DNA of 46,442 nucleotides from Chitinophagales bacterium. GTDB taxonomy: Bacteria; Bacteroidota; Bacteroidia; Chitinophagales; CAIODY01. The translations under genes were made by a program, and so were the position numbers. Location: contig CANFST010000019.1 of assembly GCA_947449695.1 (NCBI GenBank), positions 1-46,442 on the forward strand, given 5' to 3'. This document shows positions 4,268 to 46,346 of this stretch, in pieces (position 1 is the stretch's first letter; each line of letters begins with the position of its first letter). Below the pieces are notes generated by a model. It made no database searches. It saw only the letters and a list, made by a program, of their open reading frames with translations, and was not told the DNA's origin.

Positions 4268-4296
4268 TAAAGCCTTAATCAATTGCGACGGTTAAG

Positions 4297-4583
4297 CTCT
4301 TAATTATCAATAGTTGGATGGGCTTTTGATGATTTTGATATAAATGATGAGTAATACAATAAACTATCGATGGTTAAGCTCTTAATTATCAATAGTTGAA
4401 TAAGTTATTGATGGGTTTGCTCTTAATTATCAATAGTTGAATAAATTATCGATGGATTTACTCTAAATTATCAATAGTTGAATAAATTATCGATGGGTTT
4501 ACTCTAGATTATCAATAATTGAATGAGTTTTTGATGATTATACTCTTAATCATCAATAGTTGGATGAGTTTTAGATGGCTAAG
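4297..4583 (+). repeat. Tandem array, seven 41-bp units
   Basis: Units begin with CTCT(A/T)AATTATCAATAG-like sequence at 4297, 4379, 4420, 4461, 4502 and 4543, with an exact 41-base step; a degenerate unit fills 4338-4378. Each unit contains a dyad, ATCAATA and TATTGAT, separated by about 10 bases, so it can form a small hairpin or bind a dimeric protein. 41 is not a multiple of three and no reading frame runs through, so the array is not coding. It lies in the gene-free interval between two divergent genes. Between 3831 and 4787 the only other structure seen is the relic at 3921, the orphan terminator and a short hairpin at 4590. Confidence 0.9.
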
Positions 4584-6353: not shown

Positions 6354-9300
6354 TTATTTCACTATTTTATAAGTTTTCTTTCTTTTTTGCGAATTGTTGG
6401 TCAGTACTGCTACATAAAATCCATGTTCAGCACCATTCAAATCAATAGCTTTCACTTCGCTTCCTCCCCCATTTATATCGAAATTTTCAAATTGCTTGAT
6501 GATTTGACCTGCTTCATTATAAATTTCTAATGAATAATTAGATGAACTCCATGATGATGGTGTAGTAATACTTAAAGCTGGGTCAGTTGCGCTATTCAGT
6601 AAGTTGACTTTTTCATCTTCATCCAACCCATCAGAAGTGAAATTAATTGCCACAATATCTGAATATTCAAAAGTACCATCTAAGTTAAATTGTTTCAAAC
6701 GATAGTAGTTATAACCTGATAATGGTTGCTCATCAGTTGAATTATAATTCAAAGTTGATTTGCTATTTCCACCTACTGCTTTAGTTTTTACTTGTGCAAT
6801 TGATTCAAAAGTAATTCCATCGCTACTTCTTTCTACATCAAAATGATCATTATCTGATTCAGTGGCAGTTGCCCAGGTTAAATCAACTTTAGCTTCATTT
6901 TTTTGAGCGTTGAAAAACAACAATTCAATAGGTAATACATTTGCGCCTCCGCTGCTATTTGCCAGTGCAAAAGTTGAAAATGAATTAAAGGCAGAAGGTG
7001 ATGAAGTGGATGTGATACTTCCTGCTCCATTATTCAAAACTCCATTTGTGCCGCCAATGTCAATCCAGCGGTTAGTAGCTAAATAAGTATTTTTAACAAT
7101 AGTTAAATTGCTGACATTTGATATGCCATCATTTGCACCAAAAAATACTTGTATAGTCTGGTTACCACTTAAGTTTTGTGTTGGCTGAGAAGTATTGGAA
7201 GCATCTTTTCTTGTGATAGTATAATAATGAACTAACGACACATTCTGGACGGTCATTGGTATGAAATAATGCAAAGCATTTGCACTTGCATTAATCAGTT
7301 TTGATTGATAAGTGTATAAAGTACCATTTGAATGATTAACTGTTAAAGCAACTGGTCGGCAATCTGTACCATTCCCAATTGGAAAATTTAGTGTAGTTGC
7401 GCCACTGGTAGATTTTTGATAATTCATTGGTCCGTTTACATAACTAGTTGATAATGCAGTTCCAACTGCAGTTGTAGAAGCATTAAGCATAGTTAAAATA
7501 TAACTTGTTGAAGTATTCAACAAGCCTGATGTCAACGTTAAATTATTTGAGACATTTATAGAAGTTGAATTTAATGTTACACCACCGCCAACGGCTGAGT
7601 TATTAATAACTAACCGAGTAAATACTGGAGTTGCTGTGCCAGCAGTGGCATTAATGTTTTGTGCAATAGAACCTCCAAATGTTGCAGTACCATTGCCTTG
7701 ACCAAAAGTAATAGCTGTAGCTGATGGTGATGTAATAGTTAAATTACCATTATAACTACTATTGTTATTGTAGTTTGGATAAACCGGTCCTGTACTGCTT
7801 TGAACAAAGGTTACATCATTATTATAAGTATCGGCAGTATTGTTCGTCATCAATAAATAGCCTGTACCTGTATTTGTAAATGTGCTGCTTCCATTGAATA
7901 CATTTGCACCCGTTGAAGCGTCATTGGTAGTTCCGGTTTTTGTTGAATTAACTATTCCATTAAACGTTGAGCCATTAAAAAACAAACCAGGACTTGAGGT
8001 TGTAATATCACCATTAAATGTTGTACCCGTTGCAAATTGAATATAACTGGTTCCAGTTGTAGCAAGTATTTGTGGTGTAGAGCCTGATTGAACAAAATTT
8101 CTAAAAATTAATCCACCACTATTAAATCCATTTACGCCTATGGTAATTGTTTTGCCACTTGCCAATGTTGCAGTGCCTGTACTTGGTCCAAAATTTATTC
8201 CTCCACCTGCAACATTATTTAATATGATATTGCCATTGAATTGTGTATTGATGCCATAATAGTTGGGATAAATCCAAACTCCACTTGATACAGGTTGATT
8301 GTTGAAAATAACATCTCCATTAAAAATATTTCCAGTGCTGTTGTAGGCAACATACATGTGCTGACCAGTACTTTGATTGTTAAAAGTAGCAGTAGCATTG
8401 AATACATCTGGGTTGCCATTGCCCATTAAAAAATATCCGCTACCTGTATTCGTAATAGTAAATGTTGAGTTGAAAGTGTTGCCACCTGGCGAAGCATCAT
8501 TATTAGAGCCAGTTTTAACTGCATTTACAGTTCTATTAAATGTTCCACCATTAAAAAGAATGGATGGGCTTGAACTTGATACATCACCATCAAAACGTGC
8601 AGTAGAGCCAAAATATAATTGAGCTGTTCCAGCTAATGTAAATGTTTGTGGTGTATTACCAATCTGTGTAAATTGCTTCAATGATAATATACCTGCCGAA
8701 AATCCACCAGCACCAACCGATATAGTTTTTGTTGCTACTAAAGTGGCTGTGGCAGTATTGTTTCCACCACAAAATTGTACACCTTGTCCATTGGTAGAAG
8801 TTACAATAATATTATCATTAAATGTTGTGTTAGCTGAATACCAACCTACATAAATTGCTGAATTTCCAGTAGGTGTATTATTAAAAGTTGTTACACCTCC
8901 AAAAACATTATTAGCAGCATTATATGCAACATAAATCTGACTACTCCCTGTATTATTAAAAGTTGACGCTGCATTGAATTGGTCACGATTTCCATTACCA
9001 AACAACAAATATCCTGAACCTGAATTGGTAAAAGTTGATATACCATTAAAAACATTGTTCCCAGTGCTTGCATCATTTGATGCACCAGTTTTTACGGAAG
9101 TTACAGTGCCATTAAAAGTACATCCGTTAAAATATAATCCTGGGCTGCTTGTTGTAATATTGCCATCGAATGAAGAACTTGGTCCAAATTGCAAATAAGA
9201 TGCAGTGCTGTTCATTGCAATGTTAGTTGAAGAACTTCCTACCTGAGTAAATTGTTTTAAAATTAAATATCCAGCATTTAATCCATTCAAACCCGATTGA

Positions 9301-12300
9301 ATTGATTTTGAATTGGCTAATGTTGCTGTCGCAGTATTATTTCCACCACAAAATTGAATGCCTTGAGCATTCCCAGAAGTATTTACATATATATTGCCAT
9401 TAAACTGATTACCTGCACTTGAATAAGCTGGTAAAATTCTTTCACTACCATTATTGGTAAAGGTTACATCATTATTCCAGATATCCGGATTAGTTCCTCC
9501 GAACAATAAATAACTTGTCCCTGAATTGGTTAAAGAACAAACACCATTAAATGTATTCCCACCTAAACCCCAATCACCTGATATTCCTGTTTTTGTAGCG
9601 TTTAGAGCACCATTAAAAGTACATCCATTTAATAATAAAGCACCACTTGTTGATGTAATGTCACCATTAAAAACTGAAGTCGGCCCAAATGTTAAATTAC
9701 CAGCACCTGTTAGTAATAATGACTGTGAAGTTGCACTTAATTGTGTGAATTGCTTCAGCAACAAAGTACCTGCTGAAAATCCACCTGCACCAACTGCAAT
9801 TGTTTTGTTGGCAGCCAAAGTAACAGTTGCATTACTTGCTCCGCAAAACTGAACTCCCTGCCCAAAGGTTGATGTAACTTCAATATTATCATTAAACAAT
9901 GTGCCTGCTGAATACCAACTCACATATATTCCTGTGTTGGCAGTTGGTGTATTATTGAAAGTTGCCTTACCATTAAAAATATTATTGCTACTGTTATATC
10001 CAACATAAATCTGATTGCTTCCTGTATTATTAAAAGTGGATGCAGCATTAAATTGATCAGGATTTCCATTCCCTAACAATACGTACCCAGCCCCAGAATT
10101 AGTAATATTTACTATGCCATTAAAAATATTTCCACCACTGCTGGCATCACTGCTGTTGCCAGTTTTGGTAGCATTCACAGTGCCATTAAAAGTACATCCA
10201 TTAAAATAAATTGAAGGTGTATTAGTAATGACATTTCCACCAATAACTGAGTTTCGAGCAAATGACAACGAAGTTGTTGAACCACTAAAAGTTAAGTTGA
10301 TTGGTACTGTGCCTAATTGAGTAAATGTGTTTAAATTGAGTGAACCAGCGCTAAAACCAGCATTACCTATAAAAATTGATTTGCCTGAAGCAAGAGTTGG
10401 AGTGCCTGTTCCACCTGTATAACCTAAATTAATTCCGCCAGTGCCTGTTGAAGTAACAATGATTGAATCGTTGAACAACTCATTTGAATTATACCCCAAC
10501 ATAAAGTAACCAGTATTACTTTGTTGATTAATGGTACACGATGCGTTAAAGATATTTTGTTGTTGATTGTTATGATTAGATGAACCACCAGTTTTGGTGA
10601 AAGTGGCAGGAGCATTAAATGTTGCCCCTTCTACCCAAATATCCGGAGCAGTTACATTAAACGAACCGTTGAATATAGAAGGGCTTAAAGTTTTAAAAAT
10701 ATATAAACTTGCTGTACCAGTTAAGGTTAAATTGATTCCAGTCGATGAGCCTAATTGTGCAAATCCACCAAAATTTAAAGAGCCAGCACTGAAGCCAGCA
10801 CTGCCAATATAAATATTTTTCCCTGCTGCTAATGTTGGTGTACCTGTGCTTCCAGGTTGCCATCCTAAATAAATTCCACCTGTCCCAGTTGAAGAAACAA
10901 TAATAGAATCGTTAAATAATTCATTGGAATTATAACCCAACATAAAATAACCAGTGTTACTTTGTTGATTGATAGTACAAGATGCGTTGAAAATATTTTG
11001 GTATTGTTGATTGTGATTGGAATTACCACCAGTTTTTGTAAAAATGGCTCTGTTGTTAAATGTTCCGCCCATTACACTGATATTGGGAGCAGTGACGTTA
11101 AACACACCATTGAAAACACAATTGCCAGTTGTTTTGTAAATGTTAAGTGTAGCACTGCCTGTAAGCGTTAAATTAATTCCACTTGATGAACCCAACTGAA
11201 TAAATCCACCTAAATTTAATGACCCAACTGAAAAGCCAGCACTACCAATATAAATATTTTTACCAGCCGCTAACGTTGGTGTACCAGTGCTTCCAGGTTG
11301 CCATCCTAAATAAATTCCACCTGTCCCAGTTGAAGAAACAATGATAGAATCATTAAACAAATCATTAGAGTTATACCCTACCATAAAATAACCTGTATTG
11401 CTTTGTTGATTGATTGTACAAGAAGCATTGAAAATATTCTGGTATTGATTATTGTGATTGTATATACCACCAGTTTTATTGAAAGTCACTCTGCCATTGT
11501 ATGTTGCACCTTGTGCCCAAATATCAGGTGCAGTTGCGGTAAATACCCCACCAAAAACTGATGATGGCCCAAGATATAAAACTGAAGTGCCTGTTGCAGT
11601 TAAATTGATGGGTGCAGTACCCGATTGAATAAATTGCTTTAAATGTAAATATCCAACCGTTAAACCTCCAGAGCCAGGTTGAATAGTTTTACCTGAAGCT
11701 AACAGAGCAGTTGCGGTATTATTTCCACCGCAAAATTGAATTCCTTGTGCGCTGCCTGATGTGTTCACATAAATATTGCCATTGAATTGATTGCCCACAC
11801 TTGACCAGGCGGGCAATAATCTTTCAGAGCCACTATTGGTAAAGGTTACATCGTTGTTCCATATATCAGGATTGGTTGATCCCATCAATAAATAACTACT
11901 ACCTGTATTAGTTATGGCTGATACGCCTTGAAATGTATTGCCACCTTGCCCCCAATCACCAGTTGAACCAGTTTTTGTTAAATTAGTTGTGCCGCTAAAT
12001 ATTGCCCCATTCATATACAATGTAGGACTTGATGCTACAACATTTCCACCGAAATTTGAGAAAGGTCCAAATGTTAGATTACCTGTTCCGGTCAAAGTAA
12101 AATTTTGTGCAGTACTTCCGATTTGAGTAAACTGACGAAGTAATAACGTGCCTGCTGAAAATCCGGCAACACCAATCGAAATTGTTTTCAGAGCAGCTAA
12201 AGTTGCATTAGAAGTATTATTGCCGCCACAAAACTGAACACCCTGCCCATTGGTTGATGTTACTACAATATTTTCATTGAAAGAGGTATTTGCCGATAAC

Positions 12301-12995
12301 CAACTTACATAAATAGTTCCAGAAGTATTGTTAGGTGCATTATTGAATGTGGTTATACCAGCAAAAATATTGTTACTGCTGTTGTACGCCAAATAAATAT
12401 GATTACTTCCTATATTGTTAAAAGTTGCCGTAGAATTGAACTGATCGGGGTTTCCATTACCCATCATTAAATAACCAGAACCAGAATTGGTCATGATTAC
12501 TGCCCCATTAAAAATATTATTTCCCGAACTGGCATCATTAGATGATCCGGTTTTTGTTAAAGTTAAAGTATTTTGAAAAATTGTTTTAGTAATAGTAATT
12601 GTGGCTGAAGTAACATTCACTATGCAATTCATAGTCACGTTACTGCTTCCAAATGTTGTTGTTGTTGCGCCTGAAATAGTTAATGTCCCATTTTGAATAG
12701 TGCCCAAAGTAAATGTGGCATTAGTACCACCAACAGTCAATGTATTACCGCCTAAATCAAATGTGCCACTAGTTAAAGTTAAATTTTTAACTGATGAAGA
12801 AGAGTTTAAAATACAATTTCTACTGCCAGTTACAATAGTAATATTATCATTTGCTGTAGGTACTCCATTTGGAGTCCAATTAGTTGAAACATTAAAAGCT
12901 GTTGAGGTATTTCCGTTCCATGTATAAGAAGTTTGCGCCAATGCGATTTGCATCGAAGCAATCATCAAAACAGAATGGAGTAAAATGTTTTTCAT
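6354..12995 (-). CDS. Giant modular T9SS-secreted surface protein (2213 aa)
   Basis: A cell-surface or secreted protein. A signal peptide (residues 1-20, cleavage after QIALA) is followed by a long Asn/Thr/Ser/Gly-rich beta-solenoid-like region. From about residue 148 to 1760 it consists of ten modules, each opening with a KTG segment and containing a GNGNPDQFN, GSTNPDIWN or GYNSNELFN motif; five also carry QFCGGNN or QFCGASN. Three near-identical modules in the middle contain INQQSNTGYFM. Near residue 2020 begins a beta-sandwich segment (LPIELLFFNAQ...DHFDVERSSDG) and the last ~75 residues are a type A T9SS sorting domain ending in KKTYKIVK, which directs outer-membrane export and anchoring. 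No catalytic domain is visible; adhesion or matrix function is an inference. The C-terminus is paralogous to that of the protein at 33513. Confidence 0.9.
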   Translation of the reverse strand: MKNILLHSVLMIASMQIALAQTSYTWNGNTSTAFNVSTNWTPNGVPTANDNITIVTGSRNCILNSSSSVKNLTLTSGTFDLGGNTLTVGGTNATFTLGTIQNGTLTISGATTTTFGSSNVTMNCIVNVTSATITITKTIFQNTLTLTKTGSSNDASSGNNIFNGAVIMTNSGSGYLMMGNGNPDQFNSTATFNNIGSNHIYLAYNSSNNIFAGITTFNNAPNNTSGTIYVSWLSANTSFNENIVVTSTNGQGVQFCGGNNTSNATLAALKTISIGVAGFSAGTLLLRQFTQIGSTAQNFTLTGTGNLTFGPFSNFGGNVVASSPTLYMNGAIFSGTTNLTKTGSTGDWGQGGNTFQGVSAITNTGSSYLLMGSTNPDIWNNDVTFTNSGSERLLPAWSSVGNQFNGNIYVNTSGSAQGIQFCGGNNTATALLASGKTIQPGSGGLTVGYLHLKQFIQSGTAPINLTATGTSVLYLGPSSVFGGVFTATAPDIWAQGATYNGRVTFNKTGGIYNHNNQYQNIFNASCTINQQSNTGYFMVGYNSNDLFNDSIIVSSTGTGGIYLGWQPGSTGTPTLAAGKNIYIGSAGFSVGSLNLGGFIQLGSSSGINLTLTGSATLNIYKTTGNCVFNGVFNVTAPNISVMGGTFNNRAIFTKTGGNSNHNQQYQNIFNASCTINQQSNTGYFMLGYNSNELFNDSIIVSSTGTGGIYLGWQPGSTGTPTLAAGKNIYIGSAGFSAGSLNFGGFAQLGSSTGINLTLTGTASLYIFKTLSPSIFNGSFNVTAPDIWVEGATFNAPATFTKTGGSSNHNNQQQNIFNASCTINQQSNTGYFMLGYNSNELFNDSIIVTSTGTGGINLGYTGGTGTPTLASGKSIFIGNAGFSAGSLNLNTFTQLGTVPINLTFSGSTTSLSFARNSVIGGNVITNTPSIYFNGCTFNGTVNATKTGNSSDASSGGNIFNGIVNITNSGAGYVLLGNGNPDQFNAASTFNNTGSNQIYVGYNSSNNIFNGKATFNNTPTANTGIYVSWYSAGTLFNDNIEVTSTFGQGVQFCGASNATVTLAANKTIAVGAGGFSAGTLLLKQFTQLSATSQSLLLTGAGNLTFGPTSVFNGDITSTSGALLLNGCTFNGALNATKTGISGDWGLGGNTFNGVCSLTNSGTSYLLFGGTNPDIWNNDVTFTNNGSERILPAYSSAGNQFNGNIYVNTSGNAQGIQFCGGNNTATATLANSKSIQSGLNGLNAGYLILKQFTQVGSSSTNIAMNSTASYLQFGPSSSFDGNITTSSPGLYFNGCTFNGTVTSVKTGASNDASTGNNVFNGISTFTNSGSGYLLFGNGNRDQFNAASTFNNTGSSQIYVAYNAANNVFGGVTTFNNTPTGNSAIYVGWYSANTTFNDNIIVTSTNGQGVQFCGGNNTATATLVATKTISVGAGGFSAGILSLKQFTQIGNTPQTFTLAGTAQLYFGSTARFDGDVSSSSPSILFNGGTFNRTVNAVKTGSNNDASPGGNTFNSTFTITNTGSGYFLMGNGNPDVFNATATFNNQSTGQHMYVAYNSTGNIFNGDVIFNNQPVSSGVWIYPNYYGINTQFNGNIILNNVAGGGINFGPSTGTATLASGKTITIGVNGFNSGGLIFRNFVQSGSTPQILATTGTSYIQFATGTTFNGDITTSSPGLFFNGSTFNGIVNSTKTGTTNDASTGANVFNGSSTFTNTGTGYLLMTNNTADTYNNDVTFVQSSTGPVYPNYNNNSSYNGNLTITSPSATAITFGQGNGTATFGGSIAQNINATAGTATPVFTRLVINNSAVGGGVTLNSTSINVSNNLTLTSGLLNTSTSYILTMLNASTTAVGTALSTSYVNGPMNYQKSTSGATTLNFPIGNGTDCRPVALTVNHSNGTLYTYQSKLINASANALHYFIPMTVQNVSLVHYYTITRKDASNTSQPTQNLSGNQTIQVFFGANDGISNVSNLTIVKNTYLATNRWIDIGGTNGVLNNGAGSITSTSSPSAFNSFSTFALANSSGGANVLPIELLFFNAQKNEAKVDLTWATATESDNDHFDVERSSDGITFESIAQVKTKAVGGNSKSTLNYNSTDEQPLSGYNYYRLKQFNLDGTFEYSDIVAINFTSDGLDEDEKVNLLNSATDPALSITTPSSWSSSNYSLEIYNEAGQIIKQFENFDINGGGSEVKAIDLNGAEHGFYVAVLTNNSQKRKKTYKIVK

Positions 12996-28034: not shown

Positions 28035-28103
28035 AGCCATCGTTGGTGTTTGTTCACCAACGATTCAAATGGAGTTGTCGGTGAACAAACACCGACAACG
28101 GCT
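28035..28103 (+). repeat. 69-bp double-hairpin element, copy 1
   Basis: The 69 bases contain two hairpins: CGTTGGTG/CACCAACG with a six-base loop and GTTGTCGGTG/CACCGACAAC with a six-base loop, separated by a short linker. It is identical to the copy at 28528 except for one base. A partial inverted copy (15 of 16 bases) ends near 28144. The layout resembles REP/BIME-type palindromic elements. A plus-strand open frame from 27940 to 28221 crosses it and is considered spurious. Confidence 0.9.
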
Positions 28104-28112
28104 CTACACAAT

Positions 28113-28289
28113 TCAACCCAATAACACTGAACACCAACAATGGCTAAAAGCCGCCAATAAAGCATTTTTGTTAGGCGTTGAAACCAGCAATCGAGCTAAA
28201 TTGGCTGCATTGGTTAAATAAGGCACTGCGGCAATGTAATAATCATTGCGGTCAGCTTCAGCACTTGGAAATGGTCCGTTGTGTGGCAT
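28113..28289 (-). pseudogene. Truncated gene fragment interrupted by a hairpin element
   Basis: On the minus strand an ATG at 28287-28289 opens a 58-codon frame starting MPHNGPFPSAEADRNDYYIA and AAVPYLTNAANLARLL, with composition like a Bacteroidota family of small helical proteins I cannot name. The family-like part ends at LLAAF; beyond that the frame runs into the partial inverted hairpin element and stops at 28113. The most likely reading is that an element replaced or deleted the 3' part of the gene. A real short protein is possible but less likely. Confidence 0.4.
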
Positions 28290-28333
28290 AAAATTATTGT
28301 TTAAAAGTTAAGAAATTACGTGTAAAAGTGCAT

Positions 28334-28499
28334 TGGGCGGCAGCCCACAACTTTTGGGCAGATGCCCCGAAAAGTTGGGCGGATACCCAAAAACCTTGGG
28401 CGGATGAAAATTTATTTTGGGCGGCAGCCCACATTGATTGGGCGGATGCCCACAATCTCTGGGCGGCAGCCCCTAACGCTTGGGCAGATGCCCAAACCA
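28334..28499 (+). repeat. 21-bp palindromic array, eight units
   Basis: The motif TGGGC-RGMW-GCCCA recurs at 28334, 28355, 28376, 28397, 28418, 28439, 28460 and 28481, an exact 21-base step. The 14-base palindromic core is conserved (degenerate in units 3 and 4), and the seven bases between cores differ in every unit. 21 bases is two helical turns, so all cores face one side of the DNA. Read on the plus strand the repeat would give WADAHNL-like heptads and on the minus strand LWAAAQ-like ones; both frames are short and lack start signals, so coding is doubtful. Confidence 0.9.
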
Positions 28500-28527
28500 T
28501 GACTATAAAATGATAAAAAATATTTGG

Positions 28528-28596
28528 AGCCATCGTTGGTGTTTGTTCACCAACGATTCAAATGGAGTTGTCGGTGGACAAACACCGACAACGGCT
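28528..28596 (+). repeat. 69-bp double-hairpin element, copy 2
   Basis: Same element as 28035-28103 with one base changed (in the loop of the second hairpin). The two copies are 493 bases apart in the same orientation and bracket the truncated gene and the 21-bp array. Such near-identity of non-coding DNA implies recent duplication or selection on the hairpins. Confidence 0.9.
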
Positions 28597-45900: not shown

Positions 45901-46094
45901 AAAAAAAGATTTAAAAGTGAATTAAATTTGTTTACGTATTCAAAATTAATAGTGCAAATAAGCGAAAAGTAAAAAAAACAAAACTAAATTAGTTAATAAA
46001 ATGTTAATAAGTAACTTTAATTATTGCTTTTTAACATTTTTTAACAGTATGGGCTTTCTGGTTATTACAATCAATTTAACATAAAGTAATTAAA

Positions 46095-46346
46095 TGGATT
46101 TCCTTGAAAGGAAATGGGCTCAGTGACATCCATAAATGGGTTTCCTTAAAAGGAAATGGGCTCAGTAACATCCATAAATGGGTTTCCTTAAAAGGAAATG
46201 GGCTCAGCAACATCCATAAATGGATTTCCTTGAAAGGAAATGGGCTCAGTGACATCCATAAATGGGTTTCCTTAAAAGGAAATGGGCTCAGTGACATCCA
46301 TAAATGGATTTCCTTGAAAGGAAATGGGCTCAGTGACATCTATAAG
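46095..46346 (+). repeat. 42-bp palindromic tandem array, six units
   Basis: Six units start with TGG at 46095, 46137, 46179, 46221, 46263 and 46305, exact period 42. Each has an 18-bp dyad (TTTCCTT-n-AAAGGAAA type) and a second, TCCAT-aa-ATGGA-like one at the unit boundary. Units 1, 4 and 6 carry ATT...TTG where 2, 3 and 5 carry GTT...TTA. In the plus frame the unit encodes W(I/V)SLKGNGLS(D/N)IHK, and most changes between units are synonymous or conservative, though there is no ATG or ribosome site and the frame runs into the following terminator. Between 45901 and 46094 only AT-rich sequence is seen. Confidence 0.92.

Follow-up and report, generated by a model that had tools for sequence, protein, structure and literature searches.

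The array analyzed here has its closest described counterparts in four kinds of element. TIGR arrays, which belong to TIGR-Tas systems, contain repeats that stay the same inside one locus but vary from locus to locus (PMC12045711), and the CRISPR array of L. pneumophila Lens carries a boxA, GTTCTTTAAAA (PMC7862264). REP/BIME elements are short intergenic palindromes, and iteron or operator arrays are composed of ~21-bp sites repeated on one face of the DNA next to a gene. The window (the whole stretch of 46,442 nucleotides that was analyzed, a contig of a Chitinophagales bacterium) contains an array that is similar to all of these in part. It occupies positions 28334 to 28501 on the minus strand, the strand of the gene to which it belongs, and consists of eight 21-nt units of the type TGGGC-N4-GCCCA.

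As in TIGR systems, the array and its relatives are tandem arrays beside one gene, with half-units of ~17 to 21 nt and a longer double unit, and their short repeats are locus specific; palindromic variants are known for TIGR as well. However, TIGR spacer sizes vary between loci, whereas the step here is 21 nt; no Nop domain was found in 12 members of the adjacent protein family, whose C-terminal part matches Fn3 structures; distinct spacers, which in TIGR measure ~9 nt and lie between alternating repeats, are lacking in some of the arrays, although many contain variable stretches; and wobble pairs are not biased toward one strand. What boxA-led CRISPR arrays share with these arrays is the leader itself and repeats with variable parts between them, but the whole units here are only 21 nt long, the variable parts of 7 to 9 nt are common to different copies, and no cas gene was seen to recur among the neighbors of 20 cassettes (array plus gene), around which only the cassette gene itself recurs widely. 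Identical repeats of ~21 to 48 nt alternating with spacers of similar length, as in CRISPR, were not found in the array. The window copy is bracketed by REP-like repeats of 69 nt, which are dispersed in the genome as REP/BIME elements are; the palindromes of the array, in contrast, are locus specific, held in a 21-nt register and tied to one gene family, and occur at three places in the genome. Finally, unlike iteron or operator arrays, those described here were not found on plasmids in searches with one or a few queries, no Rep or regulator gene recurs alongside them, and paralogues differ in array sequence but agree in period and symmetry.

The TGGGC starts of the eight window units follow one another at a step of exactly 21 nt. 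TRF reports a period of 21 across most of the array, and identity within the array is 0.62 at lag 21 versus 0.40 at lag 20 and 0.38 at lag 22. An earlier note on this DNA had described eight palindromic cores at this step; the step and the TGGGC starts are indeed exact, but only units 1, 5, 6, and 8 are perfect TGGGC-N4-GCCCA palindromes. The other four retain TGGGC and are altered on the GCCCA side, which reads GCCCC in units 2 and 7, ACCCA in unit 3, and GAAAA in unit 4. Each whole unit comprises ~14 constant and 7 variable bases. The 7-nt spacers (CAACTTT, GAAAAGT, AAAACCT, and TTTATTT in units 1 to 4; CATTGAT, CAATCTC, TAACGCT, and AACCATG in units 5 to 8) all differ from one another within the array, as the note had stated; they are not unique in the genome.

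A search of the whole assembly located the TGGGC-type array at three places, namely, the window (contig C19, 8 units), contig C20 (9 units), and contig C7 (6 units). Many spacers are common to the three copies and appear in the same order, with the best agreement in the units farthest from the gene, and one spacer, CAACTTT, occurs twice in the C7 array. Thus, the spacers are inherited with the copies, and the number of units changes by whole units. The likeness to a miniature repeat-spacer array suggested in the note is not supported by this comparison, nor by the finding that units in some other arrays of this kind are almost identical (lag-21 identity of 0.80 to 0.91) and so lack distinct spacers. 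When a collection of genome contigs was scanned with the array pattern, only GC-rich matches were obtained, mostly in actinobacteria, which were taken as chance; a scan of viral contigs gave no match.

The C7 locus reveals what the window array is. At C7, 44 nt separate the end of the array from the start codon of a gene that runs on the other strand, MPHNGPFPSAEADRNDYY...; its reading frame at this locus contains one in-frame TAG. Positions 28145 to 28526 of the window are a copy of this locus, with 93% and 89% identity over two overlapping pieces, and comprise, on the minus strand, the truncated 5' end of the gene (~48 codons, MPHNGPFPSAEADRNDYY..., 28145 to 28289, start codon at 28289), the 44-nt gap between start codon and array (28290 to 28333), the array, and, on its far side, a leader remnant (28502 to 28526); homology to the C7 and C20 copies stops at 28526. 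The displaced copy is bracketed by two copies of a 69-nt imperfect palindrome (28035 to 28103 and 28528 to 28596, both on the plus strand), which are 99% identical and in the same orientation. The C20 copy has the same left flank (190 nt at 99%), array, and leader, without the gene. The homology to C7, the 69-nt brackets, and the gene cut to ~48 codons identify the window array as a displaced and decayed copy of an array-plus-gene cassette that retains little of its gene and is probably inert. The 69-nt double palindrome has 31 matches in the genome (some copies being counted on both strands), adjoins the C20 copy as well, and looks as if it moves or captures DNA. When the shared flank GTAAAAGTGCA..TGGGCNGCAG was sought in 396 genomes of the order, it was found only in this genome and one other. 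In a different family of the order, two neighboring copies of a dispersed repeat (genome G088, contig C66; locus L071, 1260 to 1560) have GTAAAAGTGCA..TGGGCGGCAG in common with the gene-proximal end of the window array, and no array is present there.

The note had proposed a search for further arrays, and besides the two others in this genome, the 21-nt step was found upstream of the same gene family in Bacteroidota relatives. A gene-profile search gave 16 matches in the order; a phylum-wide search followed, with 29 loci analyzed, and a third round added 13 more members from one family of another group. Upstream DNA of at least 400 nt was available for 40 members, from several Bacteroidota families. 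Among these, the best upstream repeat lag (8 to 32) is 21 in 37, the top lag over 6 to 65 is a multiple of 21 in 38, and 32 possess strong arrays (z of at least 6, with the lag a multiple of 21). The pattern had first been seen in the initial search; the second and third rounds, run afterward, both reproduced it out of sample. Of 172 control genes from the same fetched regions, 1 reaches a z of 6, at lag 9, and none of 28 regions downstream of the same family genes shows the pattern. The exceptions are two near-identical members in genome G649 that lack an array and a few weak ones. Most of the arrays lie between positions −350 and −50, and as a rule the gene starts 45 to 120 nt after the array. 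The association of the array with the gene family is strong.

Of 185 control slices, drawn from the window and from further loci of this genome, 2 show the pattern, both of them 42-nt arrays. One is a second tandem array in the window (46091 to 46345; 6 copies of a 42-nt unit, 93% alike, with TTTCCTTnnAAGGAAA dyads), soon after which the contig ends. The window also contains an AT-rich tandem array of ~7 copies of 41-nt units between two genes (4286 to 4578) and a 441-nt tandem repeat (10423 to 11477; 2.4 copies, 80%) inside a minus-strand reading frame of 2,213 amino acids (6354 to 12995). An array of the same kind as that studied here, with a MVWAAAQ frame and without a cassette gene, lies in the sister species (genome G001, contig C126; locus L075, 1500 to 1700) directly after a tyrosine-recombinase-like reading frame.

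The core of the array differs from gene to gene, even among paralogues of one genome: examples are TGGGC..GCCCA, AGAAT..ATTCT, TCCGAA..TTCGGA, GCACATGTGC, and CTCC..GGAG. Variable stretches are present in many of the family arrays. The array sequence turns over, but its 21-nt step, its location, and its tendency toward dyad symmetry stay constant. Between the C7 copy and the sister species, the leader is 88%, the 44-nt gap 98%, and the coding DNA 62% identical, with the array itself in between at 75% (global alignment); among four genera of another group, the proteins are 83 to 92% identical and the arrays 54 to 83%. The array could be a neutral minisatellite spread by slippage and recombination, given that the copy number varies (6, 8, and 9 units) between copies and that some arrays are nearly homogeneous. 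We regard this origin as quite unlikely, however: in many genera, one gene family has the same period in the same upstream position, which is seen neither before neighboring genes nor downstream, leader and gap are conserved, and dyad symmetry goes beyond chance.

The symmetry was measured against arrays with permuted columns, a procedure that keeps array period and composition. Dyad symmetry exceeds that of the permuted arrays (Fisher combined P = 8e-10), with P ≤ 0.05 in 13 of 26 arrays; taken singly, the other 13 are not significant, and in G545:C41 and G545:C56 symmetry is at or below chance. The arrays also fold far better than dinucleotide shuffles on both strands (mean z of −4.6 and −4.7), and some contain changes on both sides of pairs beyond independence. 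If hairpins functioned in the transcript, G.T mismatches in stems should exceed A.C mismatches on the gene strand; they do not (90 G.T versus 109 A.C), and there is no RNA-strand bias. The lack of a G.T excess and the equal folding of the two strands favor selection of the symmetry on double-stranded DNA. Twenty-one base pairs correspond to two turns of B-DNA, and the exact 21-nt step would fit selection at that level: the units stand in B-DNA register and are dyad symmetric on double-stranded DNA, as in a helically phased binding array. The note's proposal of selection at the DNA level, with every core facing the same side of the helix, is supported, in that step and dyad recur across the family and the sequence does not.

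The note had offered, as an alternative, that the array encodes a heptad-repeat protein. In the window subgroup, the array frame is open on both strands, and the peptide reading finds its strongest case in the minus-strand frame, MVWASAQALGAAAQRLWASAQ..., which ends just before the next gene and, in the sister species, is kept open and in frame while half of the palindromes decay. This case does not extend to the family. A gene-strand open frame is present in 12 of 26 family arrays (9.2 expected by column permutation) and absent from 14, so the array is not a repeat protein in general; on the opposite strand, a frame is open in 17 (10.6 expected) and absent from 9. Homologous arrays with identical spacers, one half of what the note had named as the mark of a repeat protein, do exist, but codon-level conservation of one open frame across homologous arrays was not found in the wider family, and the translated motifs of different arrays have nothing in common. 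That the array serves to encode a small heptad-repeat protein (minus strand, MVWASAQALGAAAQ...) is, consequently, highly improbable.

Sequence motifs at the far end of the arrays suggest that they are probably transcribed as untranslated leaders. GTTCTTT, which we take to be the rRNA boxA of Nus-dependent antitermination, occurs at −300 to −360, just before the array, in 7 of the 15 members of the window's order and is missing from the other 8. Against a background of 0.14 per kb, the binomial P value is 2e-11, which is somewhat optimistic because the position range was chosen after the first examples had been seen; the opposite strand has 0 occurrences. In related genomes, the same motif, AAAGTTCTTTGA, is present both in the leader and on the downstream side of 16S; the string GTTCTTTAAAA, the one carried by the L. 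pneumophila Lens array, precedes the G000:C7b gene. The motif is missing in the second large group (G545 and relatives) and in the C7 source copy. A boxA before a long untranslated stretch would be expected if the array were transcribed into a leader.

If the array is transcribed, a role as RNA is as natural as a role as DNA. It could then be a functional RNA, a chain of small hairpins or a precursor cut to 21- or 42-nt RNAs, acting together with the downstream protein and perhaps in the manner of a guide, as in TIGR arrays, which are processed into ~36-nt RNAs, or in CRISPR arrays. BoxA is reported before CRISPR arrays too (PMC7862264), and TIGR arrays likewise have repeats that are uniform inside a locus and vary from one locus to the next (PMC12045711); folding is strong, and the repeat signal at lag 42 is often at least as high as that at lag 21. 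Conversely, the gene strand has no G.U excess, the two strands fold equally, several arrays with nearly identical units offer no distinct spacers, an exact step of 21 nt would serve no obvious purpose in RNA, and no Nop domain, nuclease, or known defense family was recognized in the protein. On this evidence, an RNA function is unlikely. Rfam 15 gave no match above the gathering score.

The protein itself offers few clues. The cassette gene is unnamed and encodes ~225 (~200 to 250) amino acids, with an N-terminal region unlike any known family and a C-terminal Fn3-like domain. No Pfam, NCBIfam, PHROGs, or PADLOC family covers it: the PADLOC anti-phage defense models gave no match, Pfam and NCBIfam scans of 12 family members found no Nop domain, and neither a nuclease nor a known defense family was recognized. 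A subgroup profile matches the Fn3 domains of solved structures over positions 106 to 210 (titin, E = 6e-22), and two family members match Pfam fn3. The first ~100 residues have no match and, from their sequence, give the impression of being helical. No DNA-binding domain was recognized in the protein, and DNA binding is not usual for Fn3 domains. The gene family was not found in viral contigs or plasmids, each searched with one or a few query sequences, and around 20 cassettes only the cassette gene recurs widely. The absence of conserved neighbors, the presence of several cassettes per genome, and their frequent truncation suggest that the cassette is a solitary, mobile, or quickly lost unit.

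Another reading is that the palindromes, phased on one helix face, are operators bound specifically by a separate regulator, a dimer, with the downstream gene merely its target. Palindromes at two helical turns, symmetry at the DNA level, and a position upstream of a gene are what such sites would look like. However, the core is different in each paralogue of one genome, so a separate regulator would be needed for each, and beside the cassette no regulator gene is conserved; we consider such operators improbable.

The best reading, to which we give tentative preference at rather less than even confidence, is that the array is a helically phased cis platform that controls its gene. The two parts of the cassette, a non-coding array of short dyad-symmetric units at exactly 21 bp and, after it, the gene for the ~200- to 250-amino-acid protein, are strongly associated; this association, the period, position, and symmetry, the lack of a consistent reading frame, and the boxA-like motif before many arrays of the window's order are observed, and the mechanism that we infer is as follows. 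A promoter would lie before the array, which would form a ~250-nt untranslated leader guarded by boxA against early termination. On the phased palindromes, all facing one side, a protein would bind repeatedly and cooperatively; the simplest candidate is the product of the gene itself, or else a cognate factor, and the binder would read spacing and symmetry more than sequence. In this way, the array would set the expression of the downstream gene. Less probable is that the cassettes make up a two-part system, widespread in Bacteroidota, whose protein, with its unfamiliar N-terminal region and Fn3-like domain, recognizes its own array, phased at 21 nt, by spacing and shape instead of sequence, either as DNA or as a boxA-led RNA cut to units.

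The recurrence of the array before an uncharacterized gene family in many Bacteroidota relatives suggests that array and gene form a unit not described before; the open literature that was searched contained no account of such arrays. Period and symmetry that stay fixed while the sequence turns over, at the same place before one gene family, imply a constraint of a kind that the libraries and open papers searched do not describe for any array. If the protein acts on its own array, the cassette would represent a recognition system based on spacing and shape.
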